A stretch of 64,000 nucleotides of DNA from NCBI GenBank assembly GCA_947184155.2, contig CAMXCT020003168.1:519286-583285 (forward strand), written 5' to 3'. Of this stretch, positions 881-64,000 are shown piece by piece. Position 1 is the first letter of the stretch; every line of letters begins with the position of its first letter. Origin of the DNA: Cladocopium goreaui (taxonomy: Eukaryota; Sar; Dinophyceae; Suessiales; Symbiodiniaceae). The translations under genes and the position numbers were made by a program. The notes below the pieces were generated by a model that saw only the letters and a program-made list of their open reading frames with translations, was not told the origin of the DNA and did no database searches.

Positions 881-882
881 AA

Positions 883-16671: not shown

Positions 16672-16702
<31 letters not shown>

Positions 16703-29861: not shown

Positions 29862-29893
<32 letters not shown>

Positions 29894-29926
29894 CTACTAC
29901 TACTACCACTACCACTACCACTACCA

Positions 29927-29969
<43 letters not shown>

Positions 29970-30316: not shown

Positions 30317-30542
30317 AGCAGATAGATAGATAGATAGATAGAGATAAAGCAGCCAACGCGGTCCGGAAGACATGCAGCAGCAGCCCGGAGATGGTGAGCA
30401 GGAAGGTGTTTCAGAGTGGTTTCAGACCTCTTTTGGGCTTGTTTTTTGGGTACCCCCAGCTTTGGGAGATGAAAAAAGAAAGAGAAAAGGTAGAGAAAGA
30501 GAGAGAGAGAGAGAGACAGAGAGAGGAAGAGGGAAAGAGAGA

Positions 30543-30576
<34 letters not shown>

Positions 30577-32339: not shown

Positions 32340-32370
<31 letters not shown>

Positions 32371-32750: not shown

Positions 32751-33240
32751 CTTCCCAGTACTACTTCCCAGTACTACTGTGTACTACAAAGCTTGCACAA
32801 ACCACTTCCCAGTACTACTGTGTACTACAAAGCTTGCACAAAGCACTTCCCAGTACTACTGTGTACTACAAAGCTTGCACAAAGCACTTCCCAGTACTAC
32901 TGTGTACTACAAAGCTTGCACAAACTTCCCAGTACCACTTTGTACTACAAAGCTTGCACAAAGTAGTACTACTTTGTACTACAAAGCTTGCACAAACTAC
33001 TTCCCCCACTACTGTACTACTACTACAAAGCTTGCTACAAAGCTTGCACAAACACTTCCCAGTACTACTGTGTACTACAAAGCTTGCACAAAGCACTTCC
33101 CAGTACTACTTTGCACTACAAAGCTTGCACAAGTCTGCACTTGCACAAACTAGTACTACTTTGTACTACAAAGCTTGCACAAACTACTTCCCAGTACTAC
33201 TTTGTACTACAAAGCTTGCACAAACTACTTCCCAGTACGA
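32751..33240. repeat. 41-bp minisatellite
   Basis: About 12 copies, some shortened, of a 41-bp unit starting AGCACTTCCCAGTACTACTG and ending AAGCTTGCACAA. Open in more than one frame but with no independent sign of coding. Confidence 0.9.
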
Positions 33241-34389: not shown

Positions 34390-35160
34390 TAAATTGGATG
34401 ATTGATGATTATTGATGATGATTGATTGATGATGATTGATGATGATTGATGATGATTGATTGATGATTGATGATGATTGATGATGATTGATGATGATTGA
34501 TGATGATTGATGATGATTGATGATGTTTGATGATGATTGATGATGATTGATGATGATTGATGATGATTGATGATGATTGATGATGATTGATGATGATTGA
34601 TGGTGATTGATGATGATTGATGATGATTGATGATGATTGATTGATGATTGATGATTATTGATGATTATTGATGATGTTTGATGATGACTGATGATGATTG
34701 ATGATGATTGATGATGATTGATGATGATTGATGATGATTGATGATGATTGATGATGATTGATGATGATTGATGATGATTGATGATGATTGATGGTGATTG
34801 ATGATGATTGATGATGATTGATGATGATTGATTGATGATTGATGATGATTGATGATGATTGATGATGATTGATGATGATTGATGATGATTGATGATGATT
34901 GATGATTATTGATGATGATTGATTGATGATGATTGATGATGATTGATGATGATTGATTGATGATTGATGATGATTGATGATGATTGATGATGATTGATGA
35001 TGATTGATGATGATTGATGATGTTTGATGATGAGTGATGATGATTGATGATGATTGATGATGATTGATGATGATTGATGATGATTGATGATGATTGATGG
35101 TGATTGATGATGATTGATGATGATTGATGATGATTGATTGATGATTGATGATGATTGATA
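34390..35160. repeat. TGATGATGAT decanucleotide array
   Basis: About 770 bp of TGATGATGAT with occasional TGATGATTAT, TGATGGTGAT and 7-bp units. Explains Ile/Asn/His/Gln/Ser ORFs on the minus strand. Confidence 0.95.
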
Positions 35161-46894: not shown

Positions 46895-47023
46895 GTGATC
46901 GAAGGAAGGCTGTCGTCATTCCCAACGCCCCTTGGGATCCAGTATGATCCAGTGGATCCGGTGGCTGATCATCAGCAGGTTCTTAGCGTGGCGTTTCAAG
47001 TGGAGGCTACGTACGTGGACTGA
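46895..47023 (+). CDS. Candidate exon, possibly terminal
   Basis: After GGCCTGAAG the frame reads VIEGRLSSFPTPLGIQYDPV, then DPVADHQQVLSVAFQVEATY, then VD and TGA. A competing frame, GDRRKAVVIPNAPWDPV, is shorter. Lies 40 bp after a family B element. Confidence 0.35.
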   Translation: MIEGRLSSFPTPLGIQYDPVDPVADHQQVLSVAFQVEATYVD

Positions 47024-47121
47024 AATTTCTTACAGGTCAGACCACAGAAATCCCCAGAGTTTTACGGAGTTTGAAGCCCAGAAATGGTGAAAAAGTGTTC
47101 TGATTCCTTTCGAAATTATTA

Positions 47122-47223
47122 CCCTCTGGTAATGACTAACATAGCTATTGAAAATGACCATTTATAGTGGATTTTCCCATTAAAAATGGTGATTTTCCAT
47201 AGTTATGTTAGTTTACCAGAGGG
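47122..47223. mobile_element. Palindromic MITE, family A (copy 4)
   Basis: 102 bp from CCCTCTGGTAATGACTAACA to TTAGTTTACCAGAGGG with TA on both sides; same family as 15916 and 44538. Confidence 0.8.
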
Positions 47224-47398
47224 TATTTATAGGGGAGACCAAAGTTTCCATTGAGCACTGAAAAACCTCTGGCGAGGGGAGTTACTCTCGGATCGTATCA
47301 ATTTTCACGCTTAACATCACAGAAGTACGAATTTATTGAACAGAGATCCAGGAAACACCATATAGGTATATATATGATATATATGATATATATATAGA

Positions 47399-47433
47399 TA
47401 TATGGTATATGTATTATATATATATATGGATAT
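47399..47433. repeat. Left target-site duplication of the LINE
   Basis: 35 bp, starting TATATGGTATATG and ending ATGGATAT, identical to 60261-60295. Confidence 0.85.
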
Positions 47434-48035
47434 ATGGTATAAGGTTTCGGCTGAAGCGTGTTCCCGTAGCTCGGCCGTTCACCCTAGTGGCTGGCTGAGC
47501 AATAGCCGCGGGCGTTGTCTTCTTGTGGCAAGAGCAGCGCCTTTTTTTTTTGTGCTCTGTGAGTACCGTGCAGACTCACACCACCTTTGCTTCTGATCAT
47601 CGTCTACCTCGTTTCTCTTCTTCGAGGACTTGTTGGACTTTGACCTTTTTGTCTTGGCCACTACGTAATTGGCTGCCGTTCGCTCGGCCCACTTACAGCT
47701 TATTTATTTCGCATTGGCTTGCAACCACTGATTGATTTTTCTCAGTGTACGGCTCCCACTGCGGACTTAAGTGTATTGGTCTCTGACAATTTATCAGTGC
47801 ATGGGTTATTTCTTCAAGGTCCTCTTTGCGCTCGTGGTCCTTCATCATTACACCTACTCAGCGCAGACGAGCGAGGAAACAGAGGGCAACTGCCCGCCTA
47901 CTGTGGTTTCTTCACAGGAAAGGCGCACGCAGACAAACCCCTTCTGGTTTGATTCGCATTCGCTCAGTTCTGAGCAAACACCATTCGAGAGATCCAGCAT
48001 TTTTGGACAAGATCCTTACAGCCGTCCCAGTTGCG

Positions 48036-49262
48036 ATGACGAAGAAGCATCCATCTTGGCGGTGCAGCCATTGTCATGTGGTGATGAAGGGAACTTTTCC
48101 CAGGTGCTGGAAATGTGGCTCCGAATGGAGTCAATGCAACGATGCCTCCTTCATTCCCCCGGAGTACAAGCAGGCCTACGATCAACAGGCCGGGCATCAA
48201 ACCCCATGGAATGGAGCCTCATGGCAATCCCAGGGCAGTGGCTCGAGAAGTCCGCGCACCAGGAGCAGAAGGCATCCCAATCGAGGATCTCGACAAGGAG
48301 GAGGTCACCATCAGCAGGACAAAGGGTATGGCAAGGGACAGAATCAAGTACCGATGCCTCAAATGGTACCTATGATGATGCAGTATCCACCACCAATGAT
48401 GCCGACTCCCCTACAGCCGCCGGTGTTACCGACGCAGGGGCAGTCTCACATGATGGACAAGGGTGCAGGCAAGGGAATGCCTCTCCAACCGGTGATGGTC
48501 CCACCACCACCTCCTATGCCAGCCTCGGGGGGGATGCCACAAGCAGCTGGAGCACAAACGTCATGGAACCCCAATATGACCATGATGCAGTTCCCTACAG
48601 CTCCTGCTGCTCCAGCAGTTCCAGTCCCTCAAGAGGATGTGATCAAGGAGGGGAAGGCACAGAAAAACTTGAATCGCCTACTGAAGGAAATGAAGAAAGA
48701 AGAGGATACTCTTTCTCCCAATCTTCAGTCTATGGCGCACGAGCTGAAGAAGCAAGACGAAAAGAGCAACATGCAAGGACTACATTCAGCGGTTCGAGAC
48801 CTAGGCAATGCCAAAAACGACCTGCTGGAGGCCGAAAACGCACGAGTCCAGTTGCTCTCGCAGTGGAAGCACTTCTTGCAACAATCTGTTGTCAAATGGA
48901 AGGAATTCACCATGAACTTTCAAGCTTCAGATTCAGCGCATCAAGCCAGTGTTCAAGCAGCTCGCCTTGCAGTTCGCAAAGCTCAACGTGCTTTCAATCT
49001 TGCTTCGAAAAGGGAGCACATTGGCAAGAACGAACCGTGGCCAGTTTCGGACGACGAAGACGAGGCTGCCGACGAGATGAATGTGGATCCCAAGGAGGAA
49101 AGTGCACAAAAAACACACGATGGTATGAGCTCTATCGTCACGAGCTTAGAGGAGCTCTCGTCCTCGGCCGATCTCCTGGAGCAGCGTGTGAAAAGGCCAC
49201 GGACGTCTCTTACCATCGAGGAGCTGCCAGACCAGTCTTTTGGCAAGGCCGGCGATACGTGA
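48036..49262 (+). CDS. LINE ORF1: RanBP2-like zinc ribbon, Pro/Met/Gln region, coiled coil
   Basis: The first ATG in this frame is at 48036; upstream the frame is open to about 47826 but has no ATG. 408 codons. Residues 7-30 hold WRCSHCHVVMKGTFPRCWKC, a W-x-C-x2-C-x10-C-x2-C pattern close to RanBP2-type zinc fingers, which often bind single-stranded RNA. A disordered, Gln/Pro/Met-rich stretch (MVPMMMQYPPPMMPTPLQPP) follows, then a helical region of about 150 residues (DVIKEGKAQKNLNRLLKEMK, AVRDLGNAKNDLLEAENARV) likely to form a coiled coil, and an acidic tail. The layout fits a LINE ORF1 nucleic-acid-binding chaperone. It stops at a TGA at 49260. The same DNA is also open in the ORF2 frame. 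Confidence 0.75.
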   Translation: MTKKHPSWRCSHCHVVMKGTFPRCWKCGSEWSQCNDASFIPPEYKQAYDQQAGHQTPWNGASWQSQGSGSRSPRTRSRRHPNRGSRQGGGHHQQDKGYGKGQNQVPMPQMVPMMMQYPPPMMPTPLQPPVLPTQGQSHMMDKGAGKGMPLQPVMVPPPPPMPASGGMPQAAGAQTSWNPNMTMMQFPTAPAAPAVPVPQEDVIKEGKAQKNLNRLLKEMKKEEDTLSPNLQSMAHELKKQDEKSNMQGLHSAVRDLGNAKNDLLEAENARVQLLSQWKHFLQQSVVKWKEFTMNFQASDSAHQASVQAARLAVRKAQRAFNLASKREHIGKNEPWPVSDDEDEAADEMNVDPKEESAQKTHDGMSSIVTSLEELSSSADLLEQRVKRPRTSLTIEELPDQSFGKAGDT

Positions 49263-49288
49263 CCGATGGGTACGATCGCCAGGGGCCC

Positions 49289-52200
49289 ATGCTCCTGCCA
49301 GTGATGGACGTTCAGGCTGTCCGACTTCACTGGAACCACTCGATTCTCCAAGAAAGAGACTTCTTGCCGGAGTGGCAAGCGCAAGTTCATGCATCGACAC
49401 TAGCTGCGGAGTTAGGCCACAAGGAAACGCTGGTTGTTGATGTGTTTGCACTGCCTCTCCGAAGGAAGCCACGTCAATCAAAGGTGACATTTGATGAGGA
49501 GGTTGTAGTCTACATGGGGCTGTATGACGACCCGATCTTCCGCAGTGTCACGATGCAACACCATACGCTCTCTTCATGGCAGGGAAAGCCGTGGACTGTT
49601 CGAGCTTTACCAGAGTACCATATTGAAGATGAATTTGAAGAAGGTGATCGAACCAGTTTCATGGCTCGTCGACCTACTAGATTTGCTTCTTCAGATGGTG
49701 AAAGAACATCTGAAACAGCCGCATCCTCCTCCACAACCAGTTCCAGTATGTCGCACTCTTCCACCCGTCAGACTGTGTTGATCCTTCTGGATGGTAGGAT
49801 GCTACCAGCGAGTCTGCCTTGGTCTGATGGAGAGGCACTAGCGACACAAGTTTCTCAAGTGACAGACATCGACAAGTCGGAGTTGCTCGCCGTACATTAT
49901 GTTTCGCATCGTCCCTCTGACTTGGTTCGACAAGATCTGCAATGCTTATTGTTGCAAATTAGAAGCGAAGTGAGACCATCACCCTTTGTAAGTTTGATCC
50001 TCATTGACCTTGAGATTTATGAACCGAATGAAGTTTTGCCTGGTGCATTCCGTCGATTCTCCAAATGGCTGCCGATGACTCTGAACCGGGTCTCTGCCTT
50101 TAGACTTTTGGACCTTGAGCCACTTCTGATCGCACATCCCGAAAGCAGCCGTTTGTGGCACAATCATGTATTGATCCCGGATGGACAAATTTCTCCGCTC
50201 CATCTTGCTGACGGTGATTTCATCAAAGTTGTGATTGGCCAGCATGAGGGAGGTTTTGACTGCAGCGATTCCGATCTTTCCTCCTTCTCGATTGAAGAAG
50301 AGCAGGAAGAATCTGATCAGGTCAGCACCTTGCAACGGAATCCTCCATCGTATGAGATTTTGCCCAGCTTTGCCGATGCTGATCCGCTGTCTCTCCAGGC
50401 CGTGTGTATCTCCGGCAGCTGTGACCAGCTCGCATGCAAACCTAGGGTCAGTAGCATGAATGAGCCTTTTTCATTTTTCGAAGGCACTGGGAGCCACACA
50501 GAAAGGACACACCCTGGCCGTCCACCTCGGGTTGAAAGTCCATATTGGCACCAGGAAATCTGGGACTTGCTTTGTGACGAAGGTGCTACAGAAATGGAAG
50601 AGGAAGGGCCAATCATTTATGTGAAGTCTTTCTTCATTTCGCATGCACACACCACGGTCAATAAAGTGTCCCGCCCATTGAGATTTGATGCAGAACATGA
50701 AACATGGGAGGCCAGTGTGAGGTTCATGTGGGAAGACTTCATCGATCCGACTGCTCCCCTTGAGCTGCTGATTGTAAGTCCTAGCCCGCCAGCGACTATC
50801 TATGAAGGGACTGTCGCCACTGTGCTAGTAGTTCAACATCCGCTGCCACAGAAGTTTGCGATTGTAGTGACTGCGCATCCTGACACACAGGAGATCAGAC
50901 ATGCACGAAGCGCAGCCATTTCAGTTGGTCCTCTTGTGACTCAGACGCAATTGGTCGAGGCGGCTGAAGTCCAAGACCTCTGCAGCAGTCCCGGTTGCAC
51001 CACATGGATTGGACAGCGAGAGCTGCCAGTTGCTGCGGACATCAGAGTTCATGATGGTTTAGGCGTTCAGTTGAAAATACCGGCCACACGAGTTGACCCC
51101 TCGTCACGTAGCATTGATTTGATTGCCTCCCAACAGCCGCATGAAACAGCCAGCACTTCGGTTGAGACGGAGGAAGAACATGAGGACATTACGCTGCTTT
51201 CTTTACAGGCTAACCATCTGCAGGGAATGTTCACTAGCACTCTGCGATTACTGGGCCCAGCCTTGCAGCAGAGAGATGGCAATTTTGAAGTGCCCATTCC
51301 TGACACACATCCAGTGCATGGACAAGACATCAATGACGGAAGACATCTAGATGAATTGTATGAGCACTGGCATCAAGTTACGCCAATCTTCGCCATCTCG
51401 ATTGAAGAAGCAGCAGTTACTTTCACTTCATGGTTTGTGCATTGTAACATTTGGCCCACTTGCGACAATCCCAGAAGGATCACTTTGTTTCCACAGAGAC
51501 AAGACTGGGATCGGCAAATCCGTTCCCTTTGGCGAGACCGTATGCAACCTGGCCAAGCCTTTGAAGTCAGCATTATTGCTCCTGCTGACGACGAGGACCC
51601 ATCGCCTGGTCATATTTTGGTTCACCAAGGGTTAAACAGCAGGCATAAAGGCATACTTCTCAGCACGTTTCATCATGCGGGATCCTCACAGCTGCACTCA
51701 CGACGTGCAGTAGTTGCGCCAAAACGCATTGTTTTTCCGGATCTGGTTCATTTTGCAGGCTTTCATGTTGAATGTCAGACCAGAGAATTTCTTTGCGTAG
51801 GGTTTTTCGGCAGGGAATCACTTGATGAAGTCCGTCCATTGTTTCCTCAGACTGGGGCGCACTTTGAATTGCACCTTGTTGACTGGACATTAGTGCCGAC
51901 TGCCGCTGGACAATCATGCCCTCTTGAGGAAACTGAAGATCATGACATCTCATCGTATATGCAGGCTGACCGACATAGATTCACAAGAGCACCACGCACT
52001 TGCGGTGTCAATCTGCCGGAACAACCGCATGAGAGCAGCCCTTTCCAGTTCCAAATCAATGCGCCAGTATTTGTACCTGGAATACCCTGGGATCTTCACA
52101 CTCATGATGAATTTATACAAGATTTGTTTGAGGCATGGAATCAAGTAGCTGTGGCATGGGAGAATGAGGAGCGATCCAGTTTGATTCTGACATGGTTTGT

Positions 52201-53785
52201 TGATCACCAATGGCCAAACCCACATGGACGCACACCACGAAGTGTGCGGCTCTTTTCGGATTTGCAAGATTGGCGCCGGCAGATCTCGCAGGCGTGGCAA
52301 GACCATGTAGTTCTCGGACAGGAACTGGAATACCACCTTGTCACTCCTCAGCCCTACACTGTTGATCGCCGTATTGCAGCGCATGTAATAGTGATTCAAC
52401 GACCAAATGAACAGTGGGTCACCAATGTCGTCACTTTGTTTGATGAACGGACTCTGCAGACGACTGTGTCACAGCTTGCGATCACTACCCACGAACACAT
52501 CTTGCTTGATAATCTTGCAAGGGTTTTTGGCATTTTTGATGTTTGTTTTGGTACATCGCCAACACTCCTATGCCATGCCTGGTACAGGGACCTTGCCCTG
52601 GCGGCTGGAGCACCAATACCAGGTAGGAGTGGTCTGAGCATCAATGTCCTTGTTAGGCCGCGACCAATTCCACTTCCAGCTGAGGTTTTGGAAGAACGAG
52701 ATGAGCACAGCCTTCTTGTTTTGTCAGGAAAAAGTGTGCCTTTCCAGGATGACTCACAGCATGCGGCATCAATTTCTGGTGTTGATTTTGAGGACGCGGC
52801 CTGTGACAGGAACAGCGCTGCCCAGATTGGACCATCAGCTCTTATTAGCGGTTGCAAAACCGAACGGATTGCGCCCAAGAGCCGGCAGTGTAAAATCTCA
52901 GATCAGCCCAATCAAGGTCTCGCACAGAATGCTGGCTCAGCTCCACACTTGACGCCAGTGCCGATGCCTACACATGCAGCTGCACCTGTTGGAATTCCGA
53001 CCTTTGTTTTTGACATGATGCGTGATTTGCAAGCTCACATGCTCCGCACAGATGGAAATCAACAAGGCTTCGTAGTCAGAGTCTGGTATATCCACCACAT
53101 ACATCGTAGGATGTCCAGGATTGCAAGATATCTGCACTTATCAGGTCCTCCTCATCTGTGGCAGCCGCGCATCGTAGCTCTCTGGGCAGACAGATTAGTC
53201 CCCTTTGAAGCAATCGCAATTTGCTTGGCCCAACCCAGACCTTTCCGTACGACCCATGAACAACACCTTGCGTTTGATTTAATTGTCACACAGGGTGTAC
53301 AAGAACCAAGACGGTCAGGTTTGATCTCGGTTTATCCATCTCACCCTGACCCCACATTTCCGCAATTTGCAGTAGCGGTCTCCTTCCGGCCACAGGTCAG
53401 TGGAGAATGGTTGGTCAGAAAACTTGCTTTTCAACAAGTTTGCCAAGTACACAGATGTCAGATTTTCCATAGGTGGAATGAGATCCCTCAGACGCCAGAT
53501 CTGACACACGAGATGTCCAATGGCGATAGTTTTGACATTCATATCCATCGCAATGGCCCCGGACTAGCTGAGTTGCAGCCCTCACCGCAGCCATCACATT
53601 TGGATGTCCATCCACCTGATGAGGATCAAGCAGCTGCAACTGAGGAAGAGGCGACTGAAGGACCGATCCTTCTCCAGCTCCACAGCCTTTTGCATCAGGG
53701 AGATCCTTCCCTGACGGATATCAAACCGTTGACCAGACTTGTACCTGTTCCTCGACTGAGGTGCCGATCCGCATTATTGGTCTAG
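49289..53785 (+). CDS. LINE ORF2: four copies of an unknown domain
   Basis: About 1498 codons from an ATG 26 bp after the ORF1 stop; the frame itself is open from 47771, across the whole of ORF1. After an N-terminal region of about 420 residues with acidic and Ser-rich linkers come four repeats, starting near 50555, 51347, 52112 and 53007, each 255-300 residues. Shared pattern: a helix, then (S/L)xxWF.xH, then R...L, then W..QI..LW.D...P, then E..I..P.P, then a hydrophobic (H)VIV.Q strand. Examples are FTSWFVHCNIW, ILTWFVDHQWP and VRVWYIHHIHR; DWDRQIRSLWRDRMQPGQ and DWRRQISQAWQDHVVLGQ. I recognise no known family. No catalytic signature stands out. A structural or RNA-packaging role is a guess. 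Confidence 0.75.
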   Translation: MLLPVMDVQAVRLHWNHSILQERDFLPEWQAQVHASTLAAELGHKETLVVDVFALPLRRKPRQSKVTFDEEVVVYMGLYDDPIFRSVTMQHHTLSSWQGKPWTVRALPEYHIEDEFEEGDRTSFMARRPTRFASSDGERTSETAASSSTTSSSMSHSSTRQTVLILLDGRMLPASLPWSDGEALATQVSQVTDIDKSELLAVHYVSHRPSDLVRQDLQCLLLQIRSEVRPSPFVSLILIDLEIYEPNEVLPGAFRRFSKWLPMTLNRVSAFRLLDLEPLLIAHPESSRLWHNHVLIPDGQISPLHLADGDFIKVVIGQHEGGFDCSDSDLSSFSIEEEQEESDQVSTLQRNPPSYEILPSFADADPLSLQAVCISGSCDQLACKPRVSSMNEPFSFFEGTGSHTERTHPGRPPRVESPYWHQEIWDLLCDEGATEMEEEGPIIYVKSFFISHAHTTVNKVSRPLRFDAEHETWEASVRFMWEDFIDPTAPLELLIVSPSPPATIYEGTVATVLVVQHPLPQKFAIVVTAHPDTQEIRHARSAAISVGPLVTQTQLVEAAEVQDLCSSPGCTTWIGQRELPVAADIRVHDGLGVQLKIPATRVDPSSRSIDLIASQQPHETASTSVETEEEHEDITLLSLQANHLQGMFTSTLRLLGPALQQRDGNFEVPIPDTHPVHGQDINDGRHLDELYEHWHQVTPIFAISIEEAAVTFTSWFVHCNIWPTCDNPRRITLFPQRQDWDRQIRSLWRDRMQPGQAFEVSIIAPADDEDPSPGHILVHQGLNSRHKGILLSTFHHAGSSQLHSRRAVVAPKRIVFPDLVHFAGFHVECQTREFLCVGFFGRESLDEVRPLFPQTGAHFELHLVDWTLVPTAAGQSCPLEETEDHDISSYMQADRHRFTRAPRTCGVNLPEQPHESSPFQFQINAPVFVPGIPWDLHTHDEFIQDLFEAWNQVAVAWENEERSSLILTWFVDHQWPNPHGRTPRSVRLFSDLQDWRRQISQAWQDHVVLGQELEYHLVTPQPYTVDRRIAAHVIVIQRPNEQWVTNVVTLFDERTLQTTVSQLAITTHEHILLDNLARVFGIFDVCFGTSPTLLCHAWYRDLALAAGAPIPGRSGLSINVLVRPRPIPLPAEVLEERDEHSLLVLSGKSVPFQDDSQHAASISGVDFEDAACDRNSAAQIGPSALISGCKTERIAPKSRQCKISDQPNQGLAQNAGSAPHLTPVPMPTHAAAPVGIPTFVFDMMRDLQAHMLRTDGNQQGFVVRVWYIHHIHRRMSRIARYLHLSGPPHLWQPRIVALWADRLVPFEAIAICLAQPRPFRTTHEQHLAFDLIVTQGVQEPRRSGLISVYPSHPDPTFPQFAVAVSFRPQVSGEWLVRKLAFQQVCQVHRCQIFHRWNEIPQTPDLTHEMSNGDSFDIHIHRNGPGLAELQPSPQPSHLDVHPPDEDQAAATEEEATEGPILLQLHSLLHQGDPSLTDIKPLTRLVPVPRLRCRSALLV

Positions 53786-56700
53786 GAGAGCTGAGAGAAC
53801 AAGTACCATCATTTGTATCTTTCACAGGTCTGCCCACGAAAGCTCGCGTTCAGCAAGAAATACGCAGTTTCGGTCACTCATGTACAGTAGAAGTAGCTGC
53901 AAATCACACCCTGGCCATCTGTCTTCCGGACCCTTGGCCGTTTGAGGAAGACAAGCTGTTGCTTTTGTTCACGGATATTCAACAGACCTTCCCGGACGAA
54001 GATTCAGCTTTCCTGACTCTGACTGAGCAAACCGATCTGTCCGAAATCCAATTGATGGCATTGCTTCATAAGTTTGGTTTTGAAAAAGCAGTGATTTGCA
54101 AAACCAATTTTTTCCATGCCTCTTTTCTTGAAGTAACCTTCCAGCAAGCAGGTGGTGCTTTGGAAGCTGTCCCCAGTGGGGAAAAAATCCAGAAACCATG
54201 GCCAGTTTATCCCCGTGGTGACCGAATGAAGAATCGTCCTATGTGGACTGCCGGACCTGACGCTCCACTACCAGCATGTCTTTTGGATTTGGGTGTGACC
54301 TTCGATGATTTGCATGCCTTTTTTCATTGTGAAAATGATTATTTATGTCAGCTCACTGAGGGGTTGCCACTTCCACCAGTGACGCAGGAAGCCATTGCGG
54401 GACTCAAGAATCATTCACAGTTTGATAGGCTCATCATCTATGCAGATGGATCGTCGCAGTCAAGACATAAACATGTTGCGCCGGCCCTCAACGAAGAGAT
54501 TGATGTTCCCGATGCCTGGTGCTTCGTTGTGCTTGGAGAAACAATTGTAGACTCTGACACGTTTGAGTACACCCTGTTAGGATGGCATGCACATCAGGTC
54601 AGATATGATGACAAGCATCAGTGGCACATCGGGGCTCACCATGTCGGTTCTGCTATCGCCGAGCGAGAGGCCCTAACTTGGGCCTTCATTTGGAGACTAG
54701 GATACAACAGCTGTATTCCAACTGTGTTCCGTAGTGACTCCTTGCTGACCATCGGACAGGCTGACGGAACCATTGGCTCTCCTGTTTGTGACCAGTCCTT
54801 CCAAACATTGAGAGGATGCTATCAAATTCTGAAGTCTGCTTTAAAGGATGATGTAGAGCTAGACCATGTCTATGGACACCTGAGCGAGCCCTGGAATGAG
54901 CTCACTGATGCTCTTGCGAAACAGGAAGCCAAAACAAGTTTCTTCCTGCCGCGCCCAGAGTTTGACCTTCCAAAATTGCTGCCAAAAATCCCCTTCTTCT
55001 GGATGATCTTTGATGAATCGCATGGATTACCTGCTTTCATAGGTACTGGCTTTGATATTGCGTCACCTGCCCTGCCATCACCCATGCCAGCAGCCTGTAG
55101 TAGTGTTTCCGTTGTACTACCGGGCAAGACGGTACACCACAAACTCAGTGTTGCCACAGCGAATGTACAATCCCTAGGTGCGGCTGAACAAGGATTCGCC
55201 GGGAAGCTTGATTACCTTCGCACTCAGGTCCTGGAGCTGCACCTTAACATAATTGGGATTCAGGAGACTCGTTCTTCAGAGGGTGCTTCGCTGAAACAAG
55301 GCATTTTGCGGCTATGCTCAGGCAGTTTGCAGGGGAAGTGGGGTGTTGAATTGTGGATTAATTTGCACCAGCCTTTTGCCCACATCAAAAAGACTCCACT
55401 CTTCTTTCGAAGGCAGGACTTTCATGTTGCACATAGGGATCCACGCCGTCTGCTTGTCCATATCCAGAATGAGCACTTCCGATCGTGGTGCCTTGTAGCA
55501 CATGCACCGCAAAGTGGCATCGCACTCCGAGACAGACAAACCTGGTGGGAAGAGACACGTGAGATCATTTTGAGGTTCATGCATGCTGGTGAGCAGTTCT
55601 TCATGTGCATTGACGCGAATGCGGGGCCAGGTGTGCCGGATGGCATGTGTGTTTTCAACCCTGGTTTTCGTCACTCGAGTGGGACACCTCTTTTGCGAGA
55701 ATTTCTGGAGGAGTTTGACCTCTGCCTTCCAATTACAAGCGAGGCCCACATTGGCACAGTCACCACATGGACGTCGCCTGATGATGGAGAGTACACGATT
55801 GACTTTGTAGCCATACCGAGAACTTGGCAGGCGGCGTGCCATTATTCTTGCGTTTTACAAGAGTTTGACCTTGCCAATGTGAACATTGACCATTCAGCAG
55901 CAGCGATTGAGTTGCAATGGGCCCAGACCTCTGCCACTCTACCGAAATCACACACTGCACCTGAGGTCTTTGACCGCACTAAAATTGGCAAAGATATTGA
56001 TACTCTTTTGCAGCAACCCATTCAATGCACATGGCAGGAAGATGTCGAAACTCAGGCGAACAAGATCGCTTCGCATTTTCGAACGCAGCTTGCATCCAGC
56101 TATCCTCAGAACAAGCACAAACCGAAGAAGCCCTATGTCTCAGATTCACTGTGGAACCTTCGCTTGAGGAAGATCGCAACTAGACGGGATCTTCGACAGT
56201 GCAGAAGACTCCTCCGTAGAGAAACAGTTGCACGTATCTTCTCAGCATGGCGCAATGGCCCTGATCAGAAAGGCGCTGCGGACCTCTCATTCAACTACGG
56301 CACATCGCTGCGTATCATTGGTCTTCGCAAGTATGTTGAATTTGCAACGATTGCGAAACAGTTGCGTCAGGATCTGAAGCAAAGCAAGCAACAGAATCTC
56401 CAGGAAGTCTTGCAACAGGTTGACCCTGCCACCCCTGCATCCAGGATTCAACAGCTGCTCAAACCTTTTAAAGGACCAAGCAATAAGCTGCGTCAGGGAT
56501 TGGCACCGCTGCCCTTGATCAAAGATGAGAAAGGAGAATTTTGCAGGACAGCTGAGGATGCGCTCCAACGCTGGATCACCTTCTTTGGGGAAATGGAAGG
56601 CGGTGCCAAAACCACGCAACAGGAACAGTGGACACGCTGGAGATCAAACTTGCAATCATTCCTGCAGCATGAGCTAGCGATTCCAGTTGAGGAAATTCCC

Positions 56701-59700
56701 ACGCTGTGTGATCTTGAGCATGCATGCCGACGCTCCGCGGCAGGGAAGGCAACTGGACTTGATGCCATCCCTTCAGAGATTTGTAAATTCTGCCCCCGCG
56801 CGGTTGCGCTCCAATTGTACAGTCTCATGCTTAAGACGTGTACGCATGGACATGAAGCACTGGCACATAAGGGAGGGATTTTATTGCCAATCTGGAAGGG
56901 GAAACAGCTCAAGGACCAGTGTTCAGCCTTTCGTTCCATTCTGCTCTCATCCTGTTTGGGGAAAGTCATGCACAAGGCTGTCCGCACGAAACAGCTGGAC
57001 CTCTACCAGCAATTCTTACATCATCAACAGCTGGGAGGACGACGAGGGACACCTGTGACGCTTGGCTGTCACCAGGTCAGAGCATTCCAGCGCCTGTGTG
57101 TATCCAAGGGACAGCCTTCCGCCCTGTTGTTTATTGATTTACAGGAAGCCTTTTATCGGGTGCTGCGTCCGCTAGTTGTCGATGGACCAGTCGATGACGA
57201 GTCTGTGGCGGCCATGGCAGCACGCATTGACCTTGATGATGGTTTCTTGCATGATCTCCATGCGGCGCTGCAACAGCCATGTGCTTTGGAGGAAGCGGGA
57301 ATTCCCAGCCACTTGAGACGGGCCATCCGTGCCTTGCATACTGACACTTTTTTCAAGTTGCCAATGCAAACTGATCAGGTCGTCACTCAGATTGGCACCA
57401 GGCCGGGTGACTCTTTTGCAGACGTCATCTTTGGTTTCTTGATGGCAAAGGTCCTCCGAAAGTTCCAACAGGCTATGGATGCAGAAGGTTTGCTCATGCA
57501 ATTACCGGAAGCCGACTCGCTCAGCTTTGAAGGCATTGCTTCCGAGGCGAAGGTTTCCTTTGTGGGGCCATGCTGGATGGATGACCTTTGCGTATGCCTC
57601 ACTGCTGCAATGAATGAGCAGCTCCACTCAGCCGTAGGATTTGCAACAGGAGTGATCTTGGACATTTTCAAAGGTTATGCGATGACACCCAATCTTCAGC
57701 CAGGGAAGACCGCGATTTTGTTTTCACCACGTGGTCCTGGCACCACCCGAATGAAACGCAAAATGTTTGGACCTACGGCAGATGGTCATTTCCTCAGCCT
57801 TGGAGAACATCACCCATATCGAGTCCCACTTGTGACTGAATATACCCATCTGGGAGGAAAGGTACATTTCTCTACCAAGCTTCGGAAGGAGATCAAGACC
57901 AGATTGGGTCAAGCACATCAAGAGTTCAACCGCCATCGGAAGCTCCTTTATCAAAACCGACACTTCCAGATGGACAAGAAGAGGGAGCTCTTTCACAGCT
58001 TGATTTTGAGTCGCCTTCTCTTTGGCGCAGAGACGTGGACGTTTCCAGATCAGAAAACGAAGGACTGCCTTCATGGAGGAATTATGAAACTCCTGAAAAG
58101 ACTTCTGTGTTGTCCTGGCCACAGTCCCATCTCTGATGAAGAAGTTCTTTACAGAACGGGAATGCCATCACCCACAACCATGTTGAGATTGCGGCGACTC
58201 CGGTATCTGGGCTCGCTTTTCGAAGTAGGTGACACGGCATGTTGGGGGTTGCTCAATCAGGACTATGAATGGTTGTCTCTTGTCAAAGATGACTTTAGAT
58301 GGCTTTGGCACCAACTACACCATTGCTGCAACCTTGGGGATCCCGCAGCCCATATGCCGCGATGGTTTGAAGTGATCCAGTTCCATCGAGGGTATTGGAA
58401 AAGACTTCTCAGGAGAGCAGCCGAACACTCGATTGGAGTGCAGACAAGGGAATTCTTTGTCGCAACGGCGCACCTGAGGTTCCTGGAGCATCTTTGTCAA
58501 GGAGGTTTTATACATCCGGACAAGCAGGAGAGCTTTGAAGACAGAATGCATCCCCAAGCCTACGGCTGCATGAGATGTCAAAAAGCATTCCGTTCATTGG
58601 GCGGAGAAGGCGCCCACATGCATCGCACACACGGAGAAGTCCATCCTGTGCGACATCTTATGGGAAGTACACAATGTGCAGCCTGTTTGACGGAATATTT
58701 CACCATGGGCAAGCTCAAAATGCATTTGATCCGCTCTACAGCCTGCCGCATCACCTTGATTGGGAGAGGTAATCATGAACCGGCACAACCAGGACTTGGC
58801 TCTACGGAGGACACAGAACGATGGTCACGTTGGGATAACCGGTTACCACCGTTGGCAGCCGCTGGACCTCGACTACCAGATGTCCCCGGAAGTGACTTTG
58901 ACACCGAGCACCGCGAGCTCTATGAGGAGATTGTCCTGGGCATTCTGGACATTGACACGGATGATTTCGAAGCCTTTGCACGGAGTTGCATCCAGAAATA
59001 TCCTATTTCATGGACTCGATGCCGTTTGACCTTGCTTGAGGTACATCAGCAATGTGCGACTGGCTTTTTGGACGTGTCAACCACACACATGGATTCATGC
59101 ATGGCCGCCCTACACAGACTCTCACATGAAGCTGCCTGGCCCTTCCTTGCTCAATTGCATTGTGCTTCCTCGCCGTCAGTGCCTTTGCAAGAAGAGTTGG
59201 ACAGACGCATTCAGGTGGCACAGATTGTACAAGCACGACCTAAGATTCCCCGTCAACTAGGACGCGAACGAGTCTTCTTACACGCCTTCTCGGGTCGTCG
59301 CAGAGCGGGCGACCTACAGCACTATCTCGAAGCTGCCTTTGCACGCAACGCAGATGGTGTTTTGCTCCATGTCGTCTCTATGGACGTCGTGATCGACAAG
59401 GAGTGGGGCGACGCTTGTCGCTCTGCGACACGAGATTTTTGGCTTCAAGGAGCGTTATCGGGGTTTGTACAGGGCGGTTTGTGCGGCCCACCCTGTGAAA
59501 CTTGGAGTCAAGCTCGTTTTGTCAACGAGAACGCTGGTGAAGAGCGTCAACCTCGACCTCTCAGGTCCTTGGAGTGGCTTTGGGGACTGCCATCCCTGTC
59601 ACTCCGTGAGCAGGGACAGGTAGCTGTGGGCAACGAGCTGCTGGTCTTCTCCATTGACCTTCTGATTTGCCTGGCGAGGTCTGAGGGAATAGGAGTGCTT

Positions 59701-60162
59701 GAACATCCAGGGGAGCCGGCTGACGAAACCAAGCCCTCCATCTGGCGTCTTCCGATCATCCAAATTTTGAGGCAGCTACCGGGGTTCGAGTTCGTAGACT
59801 TTGCACAGGGGCTTTTAGGCGCGAAGTCGCCAAAACCCACTAGGTTTCTAACTCCGAACATGGATAGCCTGCCGACATTTTTGCACAAGCATCGTCTTTG
59901 CCCTGATCTTCCGCGTACAGCGGCGATTGGTAAGACTGCGGAAGGCCAATGGGCCACCACGAGTCTTAAGGAGTACCCACCGGCCTTGAATCGAGCCCTG
60001 GGGGAAAGCATTGCACACCACCTTCTGCAACAACCTTCTTGTCATGAAACTGTGATTGATGTTGATTTTCTGGCCCGTTGTCGTTCCATGCATGCTTCGG
60101 ATCTTGGGGAATTTTACGGACCTGATTATCATAACCATCACAGTACGAAAGGCAGAAGATGA
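53659..60162 (+). CDS. LINE ORF3: RNase H, AP endonuclease, reverse transcriptase, zinc fingers, methyltransferase-like
   Basis: The frame is open from 53659, overlapping ORF2 by 127 bp, to a TGA at 60160; the first ATG is 54055, after conserved-looking sequence. RNase H at 54430-54920: LIIYADGSS, AEREALTW, RSDSLLT, GHLSEPWNELTDAL (complete DEDD set). AP-like endonuclease at 55144-55920: TANVQSLG, IIGIQETR, CIDANAG, EYTIDFV, IDHSA. Reverse transcriptase from about 56700 to 58060: TGLDAIPSE, FIDLQEAFYRV (motif A), TRPGDSFAD (B), CWMDDLCV (C), YTHLGGKVH (E). C2H2 and C2HC fingers at 58567-58755 (CMRCQKAF...HMHRTH, CAACLTEYF). From 59272 a Dcm-like module: HAFSGRRRAGDLQ, CGPPCETWSQAR, VLEHPGEP, GAKSPKPTRFLT. 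Mobilises the element by nicking DNA and copying RNA. Confidence 0.9.
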   Translation, partial: RTDPSPAPQPFASGRSFPDGYQTVDQTCTCSSTEVPIRIIGLGELREQVPSFVSFTGLPTKARVQQEIRSFGHSCTVEVAANHTLAICLPDPWPFEEDKLLLLFTDIQQTFPDEDSAFLTLTEQTDLSEIQLMALLHKFGFEKAVICKTNFFHASFLEVTFQQAGGALEAVPSGEKIQKPWPVYPRGDRMKNRPMWTAGPDAPLPACLLDLGVTFDDLHAFFHCENDYLCQLTEGLPLPPVTQEAIAGLKNHSQFDRLIIYADGSSQSRHKHVAPALNEEIDVPDAWCFVVLGETIVDSDTFEYTLLGWHAHQVRYDDKHQWHIGAHHVGSAIAEREALTWAFIWRLGYNSCIPTVFRSDSLLTIGQADGTIGSPVCDQSFQTLRGCYQILKSALKDDVELDHVYGHLSEPWNELTDALAKQEAKTSFFLPRPEFDLPKLLPKIPFFWMIFDESHGLPAFIGTGFDIASPALPSPMPAACSSVSVVLPGKTVHHKLSVATANVQSLGAAEQGFAGKLDYLRTQVLELHLNIIGIQETRSSEGASLKQGILRLCSGSLQGKWGVELWINLHQPFAHIKKTPLFFRRQDFHVAHRDPRRLLVHIQNEHFRSWCLVAHAPQSGIALRDRQTWWEETREIILRFMHAGEQFFMCIDANAGPGVPDGMCVFNPGFRHSSGTPLLREFLEEFDLCLPITSEAHIGTVTTWTSPDDGEYTIDFVAIPRTWQAACHYSCVLQEFDLANVNIDHSAAAIELQWAQTSATLPKSHTAPEVFDRTKIGKDIDTLLQQPIQCTWQEDVETQANKIASHFRTQLASSYPQNKHKPKKPYVSDSLWNLRLRKIATRRDLRQCRRLLRRETVARIFSAWRNGPDQKGAADLSFNYGTSLRIIGLRKYVEFATIAKQLRQDLKQSKQQNLQEVLQQVDPATPASRIQQLLKPFKGPSNKLRQGLAPLPLIKDEKGEFCRTAEDALQRWITFFGEMEGGAKTTQQEQWTRWRSNLQSFLQHELAIPVEEIPTLCDLEHACRRSAAGKATGLDAIPSEICKFCPRAVALQLYSLMLKTCTHGHEALAHKGGILLPIWKGKQLKDQCSAFRSILLSSCLGKVMHKAVRTKQLDLYQQFLHHQQLGGRRGTPVTLGCHQVRAFQRLCVSKGQPSALLFIDLQEAFYRVLRPLVVDGPVDDESVAAMAARIDLDDGFLHDLHAALQQPCALEEAGIPSHLRRAIRALHTDTFFKLPMQTDQVVTQIGTRPGDSFADVIFGFLMAKVLRKFQQAMDAEGLLMQLPEADSLSFEGIASEAKVSFVGPCWMDDLCVCLTAAMNEQLHSAVGFATGVILDIFKGYAMTPNLQPGKTAILFSPRGPGTTRMKRKMFGPTADGHFLSLGEHHPYRVPLVTEYTHLGGKVHFSTKLRKEIKTRLGQAHQEFNRHRKLLYQNRHFQMDKKRELFHSLILSRLLFGAETWTFPDQKTKDCLHGGIMKLLKRLLCCPGHSPISDEEVLYRTGMPSPTTMLRLRRLRYLGSLFEVGDTACWGLLNQDYEWLSLVKDDFRWLWHQLHHCCNLGDPAAHMPRWFEVIQFHRGYWKRLLRRAAEHSIGVQTREFFVATAHLRFLEHLCQGGFIHPDKQESFEDRMHPQAYGCMRCQKAFRSLGGEGAHMHRTHGEVHPVRHLMGSTQCAACLTEYFTMGKLKMHLIRSTACRITLIGRGNHEPAQPGLGSTEDTERWSRWDNRLPPLAAAGPRLPDVPGSDFDTEHRELYEEIVLGILDIDTDDFEAFARSCIQKYPISWTRCRLTLLEVHQQCATGFLDVSTTHMDSCMAALHRLSHEAAWPFLAQLHCASSPSVPLQEELDRRIQVAQIVQARPKIPRQLGRERVFLHAFSGRRRAGDLQHYLEAAFARNADGVLLHVVSMDVVIDKEWGDACRSATRDFWLQGALSGFVQGGLCGPPCETWSQARFVNENAGEERQPRPLRSLEWLWGLPSLSLREQGQVAVGNELLVFSIDLLICLARSEGIGVLEHPGEPADETKPSIWRLPIIQILRQLPGFEFVDFAQGLLGAKSPKPTRFLTPNMDSLPTFLHKHRLCPDLPRTAAIGKTAEGQWATTSLKEYPPALNRALGESIAHHLLQQPSCHETVIDVDFLARCRSMHASDLGEFYGPDYHNHHSTKGRR
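59272..60030 (+). other. Methyltransferase-like domain at the C-terminus of LINE ORF3
   Basis: Residues about 1838-2090 counted from 53761. HAFSGRRRAGDL resembles the SAM-binding motif I (FxGxG), CGPPCETWSQAR the motif IV loop with the catalytic Cys (PPC), LEHPGEP replaces the ENV of motif VI, and GAKSPKPTRFL sits where motif VIII lies. The order matches cytosine-5 methyltransferases, but the sequence is distant from the stand-alone enzyme at 7347, so it is a different lineage. Activity is unproven. Confidence 0.6.
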
Positions 60163-60260
60163 GTGCTCAATTTGCTTTGTTAATTGGTTGCAAGATACAG
60201 TTCCCGGAATTTGAAGCTCGCCGCGACTTTCATAGTCCCAAAAGGCCGAAGGAAAAAAAA
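60163..60260 (+). other. LINE 3' untranslated region and A-tail
   Basis: 98 bp with a small hairpin (GACTTTCATAGTC) and ending GGAAAAAAAA, directly before the right target-site duplication. Confidence 0.8.
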
Positions 60261-60295
60261 TATATGGTATATGTATTATATATATATATGGATAT
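60261..60295. repeat. Right target-site duplication of the LINE
   Basis: Identical over 35 bp to 47399-47433. Confidence 0.85.
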
Positions 60296-60332
60296 CCATG
60301 TATAATGATGACTTGGCTGATTTGCCTGGCAG

Positions 60333-60431
60333 CCAGAGTTTCTTTTGCGGTTCGTCAAGGTCTCCAAATGGCGGGACGAGATTCGAGACTGGCGCAAGCT
60401 GAACTGTTTTGCCACAGCTGAAGAGTGGCAG
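60333..60431 (+). CDS. Host exon downstream of the LINE
   Basis: TGCCTGGCAG acceptor and donor GCAG|GTCTGG bound exactly 33 codons: PEFLLRFVKVSKWRDEIRDW, then RKLNCFATAEEWQ. Phase 0 on both sides, and it joins directly to the exon at 60783. GC-rich, coding-type codon use. Family unknown. Confidence 0.65.
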
Positions 60432-60529
60432 GTCTGGCGCCCTGGCGCCGGGCCGGTTGTCGCTAAACGACCAATGGGATGTTAAAAACGACAAAAACCA
60501 TAGGAAAACCATAGGAAAATGGAGGTTTA

Positions 60530-60632
60530 CCCTCTGGTTATGTCAAAATAGCTATTGAAAATGACCATTGAAATAGTGGATTTTCCCATTGAAAATGGTG
60601 ATTTGCCATAGTTATGTTAGTTTACCAGAGGG
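60530..60632. mobile_element. Palindromic MITE, family A (copy 5), inside a host intron
   Basis: 103 bp from CCCTCTGGTTATGTCAAAAT to TTAGTTTACCAGAGGG; TA on the left, TG on the right. It lies wholly within the 351-bp intron between two in-phase exons. Confidence 0.8.
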
Positions 60633-60782
60633 TGATGTATATTTATTGTATACTTACTGCATACATAAATATGATATCAATATGATTTTATATGGATAGC
60701 ATTTCAATACAACGTGTCATGAACATAGTCATCTTAAAGCCATTTTATGAAGTGAACTGTTTGATGGTTGAATCTCCGCCAG

Positions 60783-60841
60783 GAACTGCAGGAGTCTGCA
60801 CCGGCGCCTAAAACGCCGCGACTTTACTCCACGCATCTGAG
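60783..60841 (+). CDS. Host exon, in phase with 60333-60431
   Basis: CTCCGCCAG acceptor; ELQESAPAPKTPRLYSTHLR to the donor CTGAG|GTGCC. Starts in phase 0, as the preceding exon demands. Confidence 0.6.
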
Positions 60842-61136
60842 GTGCCAGGAGAATCCCGTTTTAACTCCATGGAGGTAGCTGGGTGCTTCGCTGGGAAAAT
60901 CATCGAACTATGGCGGATTGGTAAAATTGCCATGAGTGCCAGAGGGTAAATGGTAAGTGCGAGCAAGCATATTGTTGTTTTTTCAACAAGACAAACCACT
61001 GGTTTGAATTCAGCGGGTTGATATTTTGGAAGAAATATAGACTTTATGTATGTTCATGTCATGTCCCACTAAACGTGGCGGTTGTGCCCGTAGAATGGCG
61101 GTTGTGCCCGTAGAATCATATATAAGTGTAAGATAC

Positions 61137-61519: not shown

Positions 61520-64000
61520 ATGTCAGGGACAACCACTGGTGGGGATGGAGATCAACCAACAGTGCCTGGAACTCCGAATGCGTCGTTGTCGCATTTGCCA
61601 TGGACCATGATACCAAGTTTCCGCCCTGGGGACACAGACATCAATGAGTATACCAAGAAGTTGGAATTTCTGGCAAGTCTGTGGCCGCCCGAGCACTTGT
61701 CGCATCTAGCTCCGAGAGCGGCCATGATGTGTGAAGGCAGTTCCTTCAAGCGTGTGATGAGGCTGGACCCAGCCAAACTCAAGGTGAATACCACCGACGG
61801 CGTGAAGCTGTTAGTGACCACGTTAGGAGGAATCTGGGGCAAAAGCAATTTAGAAGAGAAATTCGAACGTTTTGAACGAGCCATTTACACAACAGTGCAA
61901 AGGGCCGATGAATCGCATGACAGCTACATGGCACGTCACGATTTCCAATTCGAAGAGTTGCTTCAAATGGGGGTTTCTTTTGCAGACATCAGGGCCTATA
62001 TTCTTTTGCGGAATTCTGGTTTGGGATCTGAAGATAAGAAGAAGCTCATAGTGGACTCCCATGGCAACCTGGAATATCAAGCCATTGTCTCAGCACTGAA
62101 ATTGCTCGGTTCCAAGTTTTTTCATGAAGTGCAAGCGGGAAGCAAATTTCCCAACCGCGTCAAGACGTATGACGTCAATGCCGTGTTTGATGAAGACTCG
62201 GGATCAGGCTTTCCAGAAGATGACCATGTTTTCATGGGTGAAACCTGGGATGAATCGGAGATTGCATATGATGATAATGATCCCGATGCCATCGTTTGCA
62301 TGCAATTCGAAGAAAGCTTAGTGGATGCATTGCAGTCCGATGCCGACCTTGCAGCCTGCTACAACACGTACCTCGATGCCCGAAAGAGGATCAATGACCG
62401 CAGTCGCAACAGGGGTTTTTGGGGTAACAGTAAGGGGTCCATGTCCCAGAATAAAGGCAAGGCAAAAGGTAAAGGCAAAGGACAATTCCGTTTCCGGAAG
62501 CCATTGGCGCAGAGGATCTTAGAGTCCGAATGCAGGCGTTGTGGTGCCAAAGGGCACTGGAAAGCTGAGTGCCCGCTCAACCGAGCGAGCACTCCCAATC
62601 CGAATGCTGCAGCTGCCTCGAATGCCGGTGCTTTCACTGGCGCCATCGTCACCGGAGATGCCCATGGAGTTGAGGATGACATGATCCTTGTGACTGAGGC
62701 CCCCCACATGCATGCTCAGGTATCCAAGGGTTTGCACAGTTTTGTTCATATGGTCCAAGTGTCGGAGTCCAGTGTTCCTTCCCCGACCGCATTGGCCAGG
62801 CTTGTGAATTCCCTGAAGAGTCGCCTAAGCCCTCCTCGGCCTGATTTGAAGGTGCCGACAACAGCCATGATCCAACCGGATCTCACCATGGATGTGCACT
62901 TTGTAAGTCACGGACCCTTTGGAATTGTAGACTTAGGTGCCAGTCAAACCGTCATTGGACAACAACAGGTGTCTGATCTCATGCAAAGCTTGCCAAAAGA
63001 TGTTGCCGATCAAACGCAGAGGGTCCCCTGTGACACAGTCTTCCGATTTGGAAATAGCAGCACGGTAGTTTGCCAATATGCTCTCCTGGTCCCCTTGGCC
63101 AAATGGAGAGTCAAGATCTGTGTTGTTAAGAGCCAAACACCATTTCTCATATCCAATAATGTCTTCCGGACGTTGGGGGCCAGGATCGACACCGATCAAG
63201 ATGCTGTGTTTTTCTCCAAGATTCAGATTCACATGCCTTTGAAGTTGTCAGAAAAGAAGCTGTACTTGCTGGACTTTTGTGAATTGATTCGCCGTAGTGC
63301 ACAGGCAGGTGGTCAGGTGTCCGAGGTCCAAAACATGTCTCACATGCCGATCATGAGTGCCCAGGGTTTTTCAACTGTAAACACTGAACATGATGAAAAC
63401 CATAAAGCCTCTCATCATCCGAAGCCAGAAGCTGAGAACACCTCCGATCACCAGCCTTTGGTGTCAAAGGAGAACCAAGCATCCGTGCCTCCCAGTCCGT
63501 GCATTGTGAGTTCGCCGCTGTTTCATGGCCATGTCGAGCTTGGCCGATCGCTTTCAAGCCTTGCAGGTGCAGCAGAAGAAGGCCGAGTTCATGTCGATGT
63601 CCTTCGAAGACCTGTCACAAATGAGGGTGTCGTTTGGGGAAACCAAGGTCAATCAGACCTTTCTGGAAGTGATCGAGGGAGACCCAAAGTATGTTCAGTG
63701 GTTTGCGAAGAAATACCAGAACAGCCAGAAAGAGTCCCACCAAGCGTTCCTGTTCTTTCTGAGCCTCTATGTGGAACGCAAAGAACTGGAGAAGGGACTC
63801 GAGACACCGAGAGGAGCCCCGACATCAAACCACCTCAAGTCCAAAGCCAAGGCCAAGCCGGCCGTGAAGAATCCCTCCGAACATGGGAGCCAGGCATCCT
63901 GGTCCGACCAAGAGGATCCATGGGATGTGATGCAAGGAGCGCAGATGATGCCACTGCCAATTCAGGAAGAGATCGAGGACAATCGTCGCCGACTCTGCAA
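61520..64000 (+). CDS. Copia gag-protease polyprotein (right-edge partial)
   Basis: ATG at 61520, seven bases after an in-frame stop, starts MSGTTTGGDGDQPTVPG; the frame stays open to the window end (827 codons). Residues about 35-280 form the helical gag core (PGDTDINEYTKKLEFLASLW, RFERAIYTTVQRADESHDSY). A KGKAKGKGKG tract precedes a CCHC zinc knuckle, CRRCGAKGHWKAEC, at residue 338. The aspartic protease active site is GIVDLGASQTVIG at residues 468-480, with Leu where Thr or Ser is usual. After about 63525 the more protein-like sequence is in the +1 frame, so the tail of this ORF may not be real protein. Confidence 0.75.
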   Translation, partial: MSGTTTGGDGDQPTVPGTPNASLSHLPWTMIPSFRPGDTDINEYTKKLEFLASLWPPEHLSHLAPRAAMMCEGSSFKRVMRLDPAKLKVNTTDGVKLLVTTLGGIWGKSNLEEKFERFERAIYTTVQRADESHDSYMARHDFQFEELLQMGVSFADIRAYILLRNSGLGSEDKKKLIVDSHGNLEYQAIVSALKLLGSKFFHEVQAGSKFPNRVKTYDVNAVFDEDSGSGFPEDDHVFMGETWDESEIAYDDNDPDAIVCMQFEESLVDALQSDADLAACYNTYLDARKRINDRSRNRGFWGNSKGSMSQNKGKAKGKGKGQFRFRKPLAQRILESECRRCGAKGHWKAECPLNRASTPNPNAAAASNAGAFTGAIVTGDAHGVEDDMILVTEAPHMHAQVSKGLHSFVHMVQVSESSVPSPTALARLVNSLKSRLSPPRPDLKVPTTAMIQPDLTMDVHFVSHGPFGIVDLGASQTVIGQQQVSDLMQSLPKDVADQTQRVPCDTVFRFGNSSTVVCQYALLVPLAKWRVKICVVKSQTPFLISNNVFRTLGARIDTDQDAVFFSKIQIHMPLKLSEKKLYLLDFCELIRRSAQAGGQVSEVQNMSHMPIMSAQGFSTVNTEHDENHKASHHPKPEAENTSDHQPLVSKENQASVPPSPCIVSSPLFHGHVELGRSLSSLAGAAEEGRVHVDVLRRPVTNEGVVWGNQGQSDLSGSDRGRPKVCSVVCEEIPEQPERVPPSVPVLSEPLCGTQRTGEGTRDTERSPDIKPPQVQSQGQAGREESLRTWEPGILVRPRGSMGCDARSADDATANSGRDRGQSSPTLQ
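63525..64000 (+). CDS. Copia second ORF (pol) start, right-edge partial
   Basis: A TGA at 63507 precedes ATG at 63525; an in-frame second ATG lies at 63531. Reads MAMSSLADRFQALQVQQKKA, then FMSMSFEDLSQMRVSFGETK and YVQWFAKKYQNSQKESHQAF, then a Lys/Ala-rich linker. This helical region is the kind that precedes integrase and reverse transcriptase in dinoflagellate copia elements, as I recall. It lies +1 relative to gag, so it is made by reinitiation or +1 frameshifting. Confidence 0.65.
   Translation, partial: MAMSSLADRFQALQVQQKKAEFMSMSFEDLSQMRVSFGETKVNQTFLEVIEGDPKYVQWFAKKYQNSQKESHQAFLFFLSLYVERKELEKGLETPRGAPTSNHLKSKAKAKPAVKNPSEHGSQASWSDQEDPWDVMQGAQMMPLPIQEEIEDNRRRLC

Follow-up and report, generated by a model that had tools for sequence, protein, structure and literature searches.

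A long interspersed nuclear element (LINE) in a 64,000-nucleotide stretch of the Cladocopium goreaui genome (contig CAMXCT020003168.1; this whole stretch is called the window below) carries, at the end of its second open reading frame (ORF2), a domain that is predicted to have the C5-cytosine-methyltransferase fold. The fusion to the LINE, the predicted fold and the fixed cysteine and glutamate at the catalytic positions are shown by computation. On balance we read the end of ORF2 as a divergent domain of this fold that is a fixed working part of the LINE family and methylates nucleic acid in the ORF2 complex, an interpretation we hold with moderate confidence. The frame, the domain and its motifs, the latter placed by alignment, are located as follows (window coordinates; residues numbered in ORF2):

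53761..60162, + strand, ORF2 frame, 2133 aa (ORF list, Pfam, relatives)
59248..60060, + strand, predicted C5-methyltransferase-fold domain, residues about 1830-2100 (AlphaFold2, fold search, conservation)
59281..59316, + strand, motif I position, HAFSGRRRAGDL
59374..59388, + strand, motif II position, VSMDV, Asp in 215 of 216 aligned domains
59482..59517, + strand, motif IV, CGPPCETWSQAR; its Cys is residue 1912 (nt 59494-59496)
59698..59718, + strand, motif VI position, LEHPGEP; its Glu is residue 1981
59818..59850, + strand, motif VIII-like, GAKSPKPTRFL; its Lys is residue 2025

An earlier sequence-only reading had noticed four of these motifs and proposed a Dcm-type domain at 59272..60030. 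All four stand in the order it gave within the one open frame (starting at 59281, 59482, 59698 and 59818), and its limits lie close to the fold-matched part of the protein (about nt 59221-60039). Conservation was assessed in 216 aligned domains, that of the window and those of 215 of 240 listed homologues found through the domain itself (the remaining 25 did not span it). Invariant in all 216 are G32, R33, R34, G37, D38, S60, G96, P97, C99, H169, G207 and K212, while D62, P98 and E168 occur in 215. Canonical C5-methyltransferases carry FxGxG in motif I, ENV in motif VI and QxRxR in motif VIII, and we take the positions named above to be the corresponding ones. The Pro-Cys nucleophile position of motif IV is present, with its Cys in every aligned domain, and the Glu of motif VI is retained in the form EHP (Glu 215, His 216, Pro 214). 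The change from ENV to EHP that had been singled out is genuine and fixed throughout the family. It nonetheless has a precedent in small phage C5 methylases, which carry ENP there. Motif I reads F/Y-S/A-G-R-R-R-x-G-D, with the Arg triplet in 215-216 of the 216, and the motif VIII-like stretch keeps its Lys in 216 and its Thr in 214.

Because these homologues had been gathered with the domain itself, a control search was run with the reverse transcriptase (RT; ORF2 residues 900-1400), which gave 231 matches, 120 of them listed. Among those listed, a profile recognised the domain in 88, nearly complete in 73 of these; the remaining 32 stop at most 160 residues past their last matched region, and no alternative full-length C-terminus was seen in the 120. 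In the 88 carriers the catalytic Cys is found in 85 (gap in 2, Val in 1), the Glu in 85 (gap in 3), the motif II Asp in 86 (gap in 2) and the Lys of the motif VIII-like stretch in 80 (gap in 7, Gln in 1). Together with the invariant positions, this makes the motif set more than a chance pattern, and the PPC cysteine, whose loss from relatives would have spoken against a methyltransferase, has been kept in both collections.

In the AlphaFold2 model of window:59200-60159, residues 8-280 match solved folds, and the fold search assigns them to the C5-methyltransferase fold, so that, as far as the overall fold goes, the refuting result named by the sequence-only reading did not occur. Structurally the domain comes closest to DNA enzymes (DNMT3, DNMT5, DNMT1, HhaI and HaeIII), among them the catalytic domain of DNMT3A/DNMT3B (PDB 6kdp), which is 14% identical over the aligned part and is tied with rows within 1 Z that include DNMT5, DNMT1 and HhaI. 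The label "Dcm-type" proved too specific: in profile-profile comparison (hhalign) the probability is 11% against a seven-protein Dcm-type set and 92% against the small phage methylases. The phage score, a signal that comes from motif IV, is 52.0, whereas 200 column shuffles never exceeded 22.2. The target-recognition region is very short in the model, and the shortness of the stretch following motif VIII suggests that the domain itself would be little selective for sequence.

The other parts of ORF2 were assigned as follows:

54343..54990, + strand, RNase H-like region, residues 195-410 (PF00075, E 0.031 here)
55108..55935, + strand, endonuclease region, residues 450-725 (PF03372, Exo_endo_phos, E 0.014 here)
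56338..58200, + strand, RT region, residues 860-1480, with WMDDL (PF00078, RVT_1, E 0.0011; translation)
58228..58920, + strand, zinc-finger region, residues 1490-1720, two C2H2-like fingers by eye (weak PF23108; weak PF21367 in relative P0089)

Endonuclease and RT in one ORF are as expected of a LINE. The RVT_1, Exo_endo_phos and RNase_H matches of the window's ORF2 all lie below the Pfam cut-off, but in four relatives scanned PF03372 rises above it in all four and PF00075 in one, with RVT_1 in none, and the RT assignment is consistent among relatives. These give the domain order RNase H, endonuclease, RT, zinc fingers, C-terminal domain. The proposed fusion to a LINE polyprotein is borne out by 120 long homologues, in which the RT region and the C-terminal domain occur together in 119 and all five regions in 69. 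RNase H in LINEs usually sits after the RT; here the RNase H-like region precedes both endonuclease and RT.

Computation on the sequences shows that the domain is under purifying selection and is co-inherited with the RT. For the 65 proteins whose five domains are all nearly complete, pairwise identity averages 0.452 for the C-terminal domain, 0.438 for the RT, 0.424 for RNase H, 0.409 for the endonuclease and 0.379 for the zinc-finger region, and near-invariant columns number 52/291 in the C-terminal domain against 90/621 in the RT. That the domain is at least as conserved as the RT argues for an important role. Its distances track those of the RT with a Pearson coefficient of 0.80 (none of 2000 permutations as high), the Spearman coefficient being only 0.30. 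The median dN/dS is 0.117, obtained from the 5 of 190 pairs (20 stop-free sequences) with dS between 0.05 and 2; in three of these dS is close to 1.8-2.0, and most of the pairs outside the five are saturated. Between the window and L021, which is probably the same locus, there are 2 nonsynonymous and 0 synonymous changes.

In the mechanism that we propose, the C-terminal domain would bind S-adenosylmethionine, form the usual Cys-cytosine intermediate and, while target-primed reverse transcription proceeds, methylate nucleic acid bound in the ORF2 complex. The substrate would most likely be either newly made cDNA or the target that has been nicked. Methylation within the same complex is the simplest reading, because the protein that carries the C5-type active site also nicks DNA and synthesises the cDNA. 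Since the domain's own target-recognition region is so short, targeting would come from the endonuclease, RT and zinc fingers of the same ORF2 protein. The element may in this way chemically mark the DNA or RNA that it handles, and the family lends itself to testing whether a LINE marks what it copies. The bolder idea that cytosine modification is a built-in and, within the family, near-universal step of retrotransposition, copy or target being marked by the polypeptide that nicks and reverse-transcribes, is put forward tentatively, at well below even chances.

Several results weigh against methylation by this domain. The canonical FxGxG of motif I is replaced (F/Y and the first Gly are retained, then follows RRRxGD), as is QxRxR of motif VIII, where KPT stands; the Arg-rich motif I may reflect altered cofactor use or an altered pocket, direct handling of nucleic acid, or loss of catalysis. 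Foldseek TM-scores are only ~0.3 with rmsd of ~8-14 Å, and 4 of the 50 rows among the matches listed are amidases. Pfam, PHROG, NCBIfam and PADLOC gave no match for the window's domain, nor did a PDB profile search, and a PDB sequence search returned only a cytochrome subunit (E 1.2). PF00145, the profile recommended by the sequence-only reading, missed the window's copy and matched 11 of 53 relatives weakly (best E 0.035); the phrog_2882 profile of the small phage methylases likewise found 0 families for the window's domain and weakly matched 12 of the 53 relatives (best E 0.067). With motif IV masked, the score against these phage enzymes drops to 17.2, which is background (95% of masked shuffles <17.8). 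CpG depletion, looked for as a trace of self-methylation, was not seen, the CpG ratio being 0.69 in the LINE, 0.68 at 1-9000 and 0.58 at 9001-47000; the suggestion that the element marks its own copy or target stays unproven and gains no support from its CpG content. Finally, a related SymbioLINE-Dnmt domain produced no methylation in a yeast test that its authors call inconclusive (PMC5890265).

The absence of CpG depletion would also fit an RNA cytosine methyltransferase, marking RNA of the element itself or another RNA in the ORF2 complex. DNMT2 works on tRNA, and the very short target-recognition region of the model also favours this alternative, which we nevertheless rate as rather improbable: the closest structures belong to DNA enzymes, though a fold does not show the substrate, and a position at the end of a cDNA-making protein suits DNA as well. 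RNA has been proposed as a possible target of the LINE-borne enzyme (PMC5890265).

The invariant Arg triplet of motif I, the changed motif VIII and the failure of sequence profiles of active families to match at their cut-offs could alternatively mean that the fold has been retained and catalysis lost, the domain now being a nucleic-acid-binding or structural part of ORF2 whose Arg-rich loop touches the backbone. We consider this unlikely, as Cys, Glu and the motif II Asp, unneeded for a binding-only role, are fixed. That the motifs arose by chance or are functionless remains of a decayed sequence is scarcely credible: standard domain libraries are indeed empty for the window's copy, but the predicted fold, the invariance, the dN/dS and the finding that 97 of the 125 best-ranked genome places are stop-free inside the match all speak against it, and conservation together with the predicted fold led us to set chance motifs aside.

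The borders of the element and its first frame are:

47398..47433, no strand, 5' copy of a 36-bp target-site duplication, AT-rich (repeat comparison, flank simulation)
47434..60259, + strand, LINE bounded by the direct repeat, ~12.8 kb (36-bp exact repeat on both sides; 3' end block common to other copies)
47771..53785, + strand, ORF1 frame, 2004 aa (ORF list, Pfam)
60163..60259, + strand, 3' untranslated region (UTR), ending in a block common to copies L025 and L027 and then a run of A (comparison with copies)
60260..60295, no strand, 3' copy of the target-site duplication (repeat comparison, flank simulation)

ORF1 and ORF2 are bracketed by the exact 36-bp repeat, compared with a longest shared word of 15 bp in 300 simulated flank pairs. 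BLAST similarity to six other copies (two of which, L022 and L023, gave identical alignments) stops at 60257 to 60304, in some slightly inside the AT-rich duplication. Because of this duplication and the shared 3' block with its A run, we read the element as a LINE of ~12.8 kb putatively inserted by target-primed reverse transcription. No long direct repeat was found at the element ends in the flanks compared, beyond which no search for long terminal repeats (LTRs) was made. A spliced-leader relic (up to 3 mismatches allowed), an Rfam match at gathering cut-off and another copy of ORF2 within the window were likewise not found, and the 3' UTR fold is no stabler than chance, being less stable than most shuffles (z 1.47). 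In the genome assembly (1,165,616,438 bases) there are at least 125 matching places; these are the best-ranked of 3404 first-look candidates, the stop-free count among them was made by hand, and frames of ~3,800-4,100 codons are frequent. A foldback repeat of ~115 bp with ends TTACCCTCTGG / CCAGAGGGTA, possibly a miniature inverted-repeat transposable element (MITE), flanks the LINE at 47115-47230 and about 60527-60641 (~90% alike), with more partial copies in loci L024 and L026.

ORF1 and ORF2 overlap at 53761-53785 in different frames. In relatives P0004 and P0005 both are read through as a single protein, and contig C2606 (G000:C2606:15903-28299), a 99.8% match to 46901-60861, carries a single 4132-codon frame. 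As this match takes in the flanks, as far as compared, the C2606 locus is probably either the second allele of the window's locus or a duplicate of it. Since all three carry one long frame, the split is particular to the window's sequence, either a real difference or an assembly error. Pfam detected no methyltransferase in ORF1, its sole weak match being RRM_7 (E 0.15); several diverged copies of one module are visible by eye.

Elsewhere in the window, a frame at 61520-64000 (+ strand) runs off the end and has a CCHC zinc knuckle above the Pfam cut-off (PF00098, 22.8 bits); it is probably the gag-pol of an LTR element that lies a short way 3' of the LINE. Long tandem arrays, including one in which a 10-bp unit occurs 75 times and one in which a 68-bp unit occurs 7.5 times, lie at 16608-16867, 29862-30228, 31472-31982, 32763-33238 and 34397-35159, and an inverted pair at 30320-31085 / 31819-32579 is 95% identical. 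A 554-aa frame at 7335-8999 (+ strand) encodes a Pfam-detectable C5 methyltransferase (PF00145, 44.4 bits) whose nearest PDB entry is DNMT5 7r76 (E 1.3e-14) and in which, by eye, TSC replaces PPC. An origin of the LINE domain from this DNMT5-like ORF was rejected (BLASTP best E 1.2, short pieces only).

Outside the LINEs the nearest wording is found in small phage C5 methylases (phrog_2882), such as gp15 of Lactococcus phage P087 and MarMP of Mycoplasma phage MAV1, which share with the LINE domain, order included, PPCE[ST][WF]S.A, ENP (EHP in the LINE) with a later W, and K[PR]T. They differ in being stand-alone phage proteins with a different motif I, whereas the LINE domain is fused to ORF2. 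Descent from this family is a lead suggested by sequence. Capture of a Dcm-type enzyme was set aside at the 11% probability given above; its hhalign score of 30.7 does exceed the shuffle maximum of 26.6 (200 column shuffles), so the signal is not zero. Nor could a prokaryotic or viral source be adopted: phage and plasmid collections gave matches at E 0.5 or worse only, and 44 viral-contig and 166 genome-contig pattern matches yielded no confirmed relative.

Capture of methyltransferases by dinoflagellate retrotransposons, mentioned in the sequence-only reading, is indeed published, for LINEs mostly in ORF1 (PMC5890265). According to that study, CG methylation in Symbiodinium genomes is unusual and nearly uniform, and PF00145 detects hundreds of methyltransferases borne by retrotransposons. 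Among these are DIRS and Gypsy elements with Dnmt3-type enzymes (SymbioDIRS-Dnmt3, KnitGypsy-Dnmt3), of which SymbioDIRS domains methylated CG in yeast; these resemble the present LINE in having the methyltransferase inside a retrotransposon Pol protein and differ in element class and enzyme type. Closer is SymbioLINE-Dnmt, whose orphan enzymes are mentioned again in PMC12344493. Like the present element, it is a Symbiodiniaceae LINE with endonuclease, RT and a C5-type methyltransferase domain under purifying selection, and with target-site duplications; these duplications and a conserved 3' UTR are found here too. Judged by published description rather than by sequence alignment, the two are set apart: the SymbioLINE enzyme is mostly encoded by ORF1, which precedes the RT ORF, is detectable with PF00145 and belongs to elements without poly-A tails, whereas here the domain ends ORF2, the window's copy escapes PF00145 and a short A run precedes the duplication. 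Because its position differs and it is barely visible to PF00145, the present family was probably not counted in that survey. As the LINE has at least 125 matching places in one genome and the profile misses, in the window's copy, a domain of its central replication protein, published counts of retrotransposon-borne methyltransferases in Symbiodinium would seem too low. No methyltransferase domain recognised at the end of a LINE ORF2 appeared in the literature searched; retrotransposon capture of a methyltransferase is a known kind of event, of which the present LINE represents an ORF2-terminal variant.

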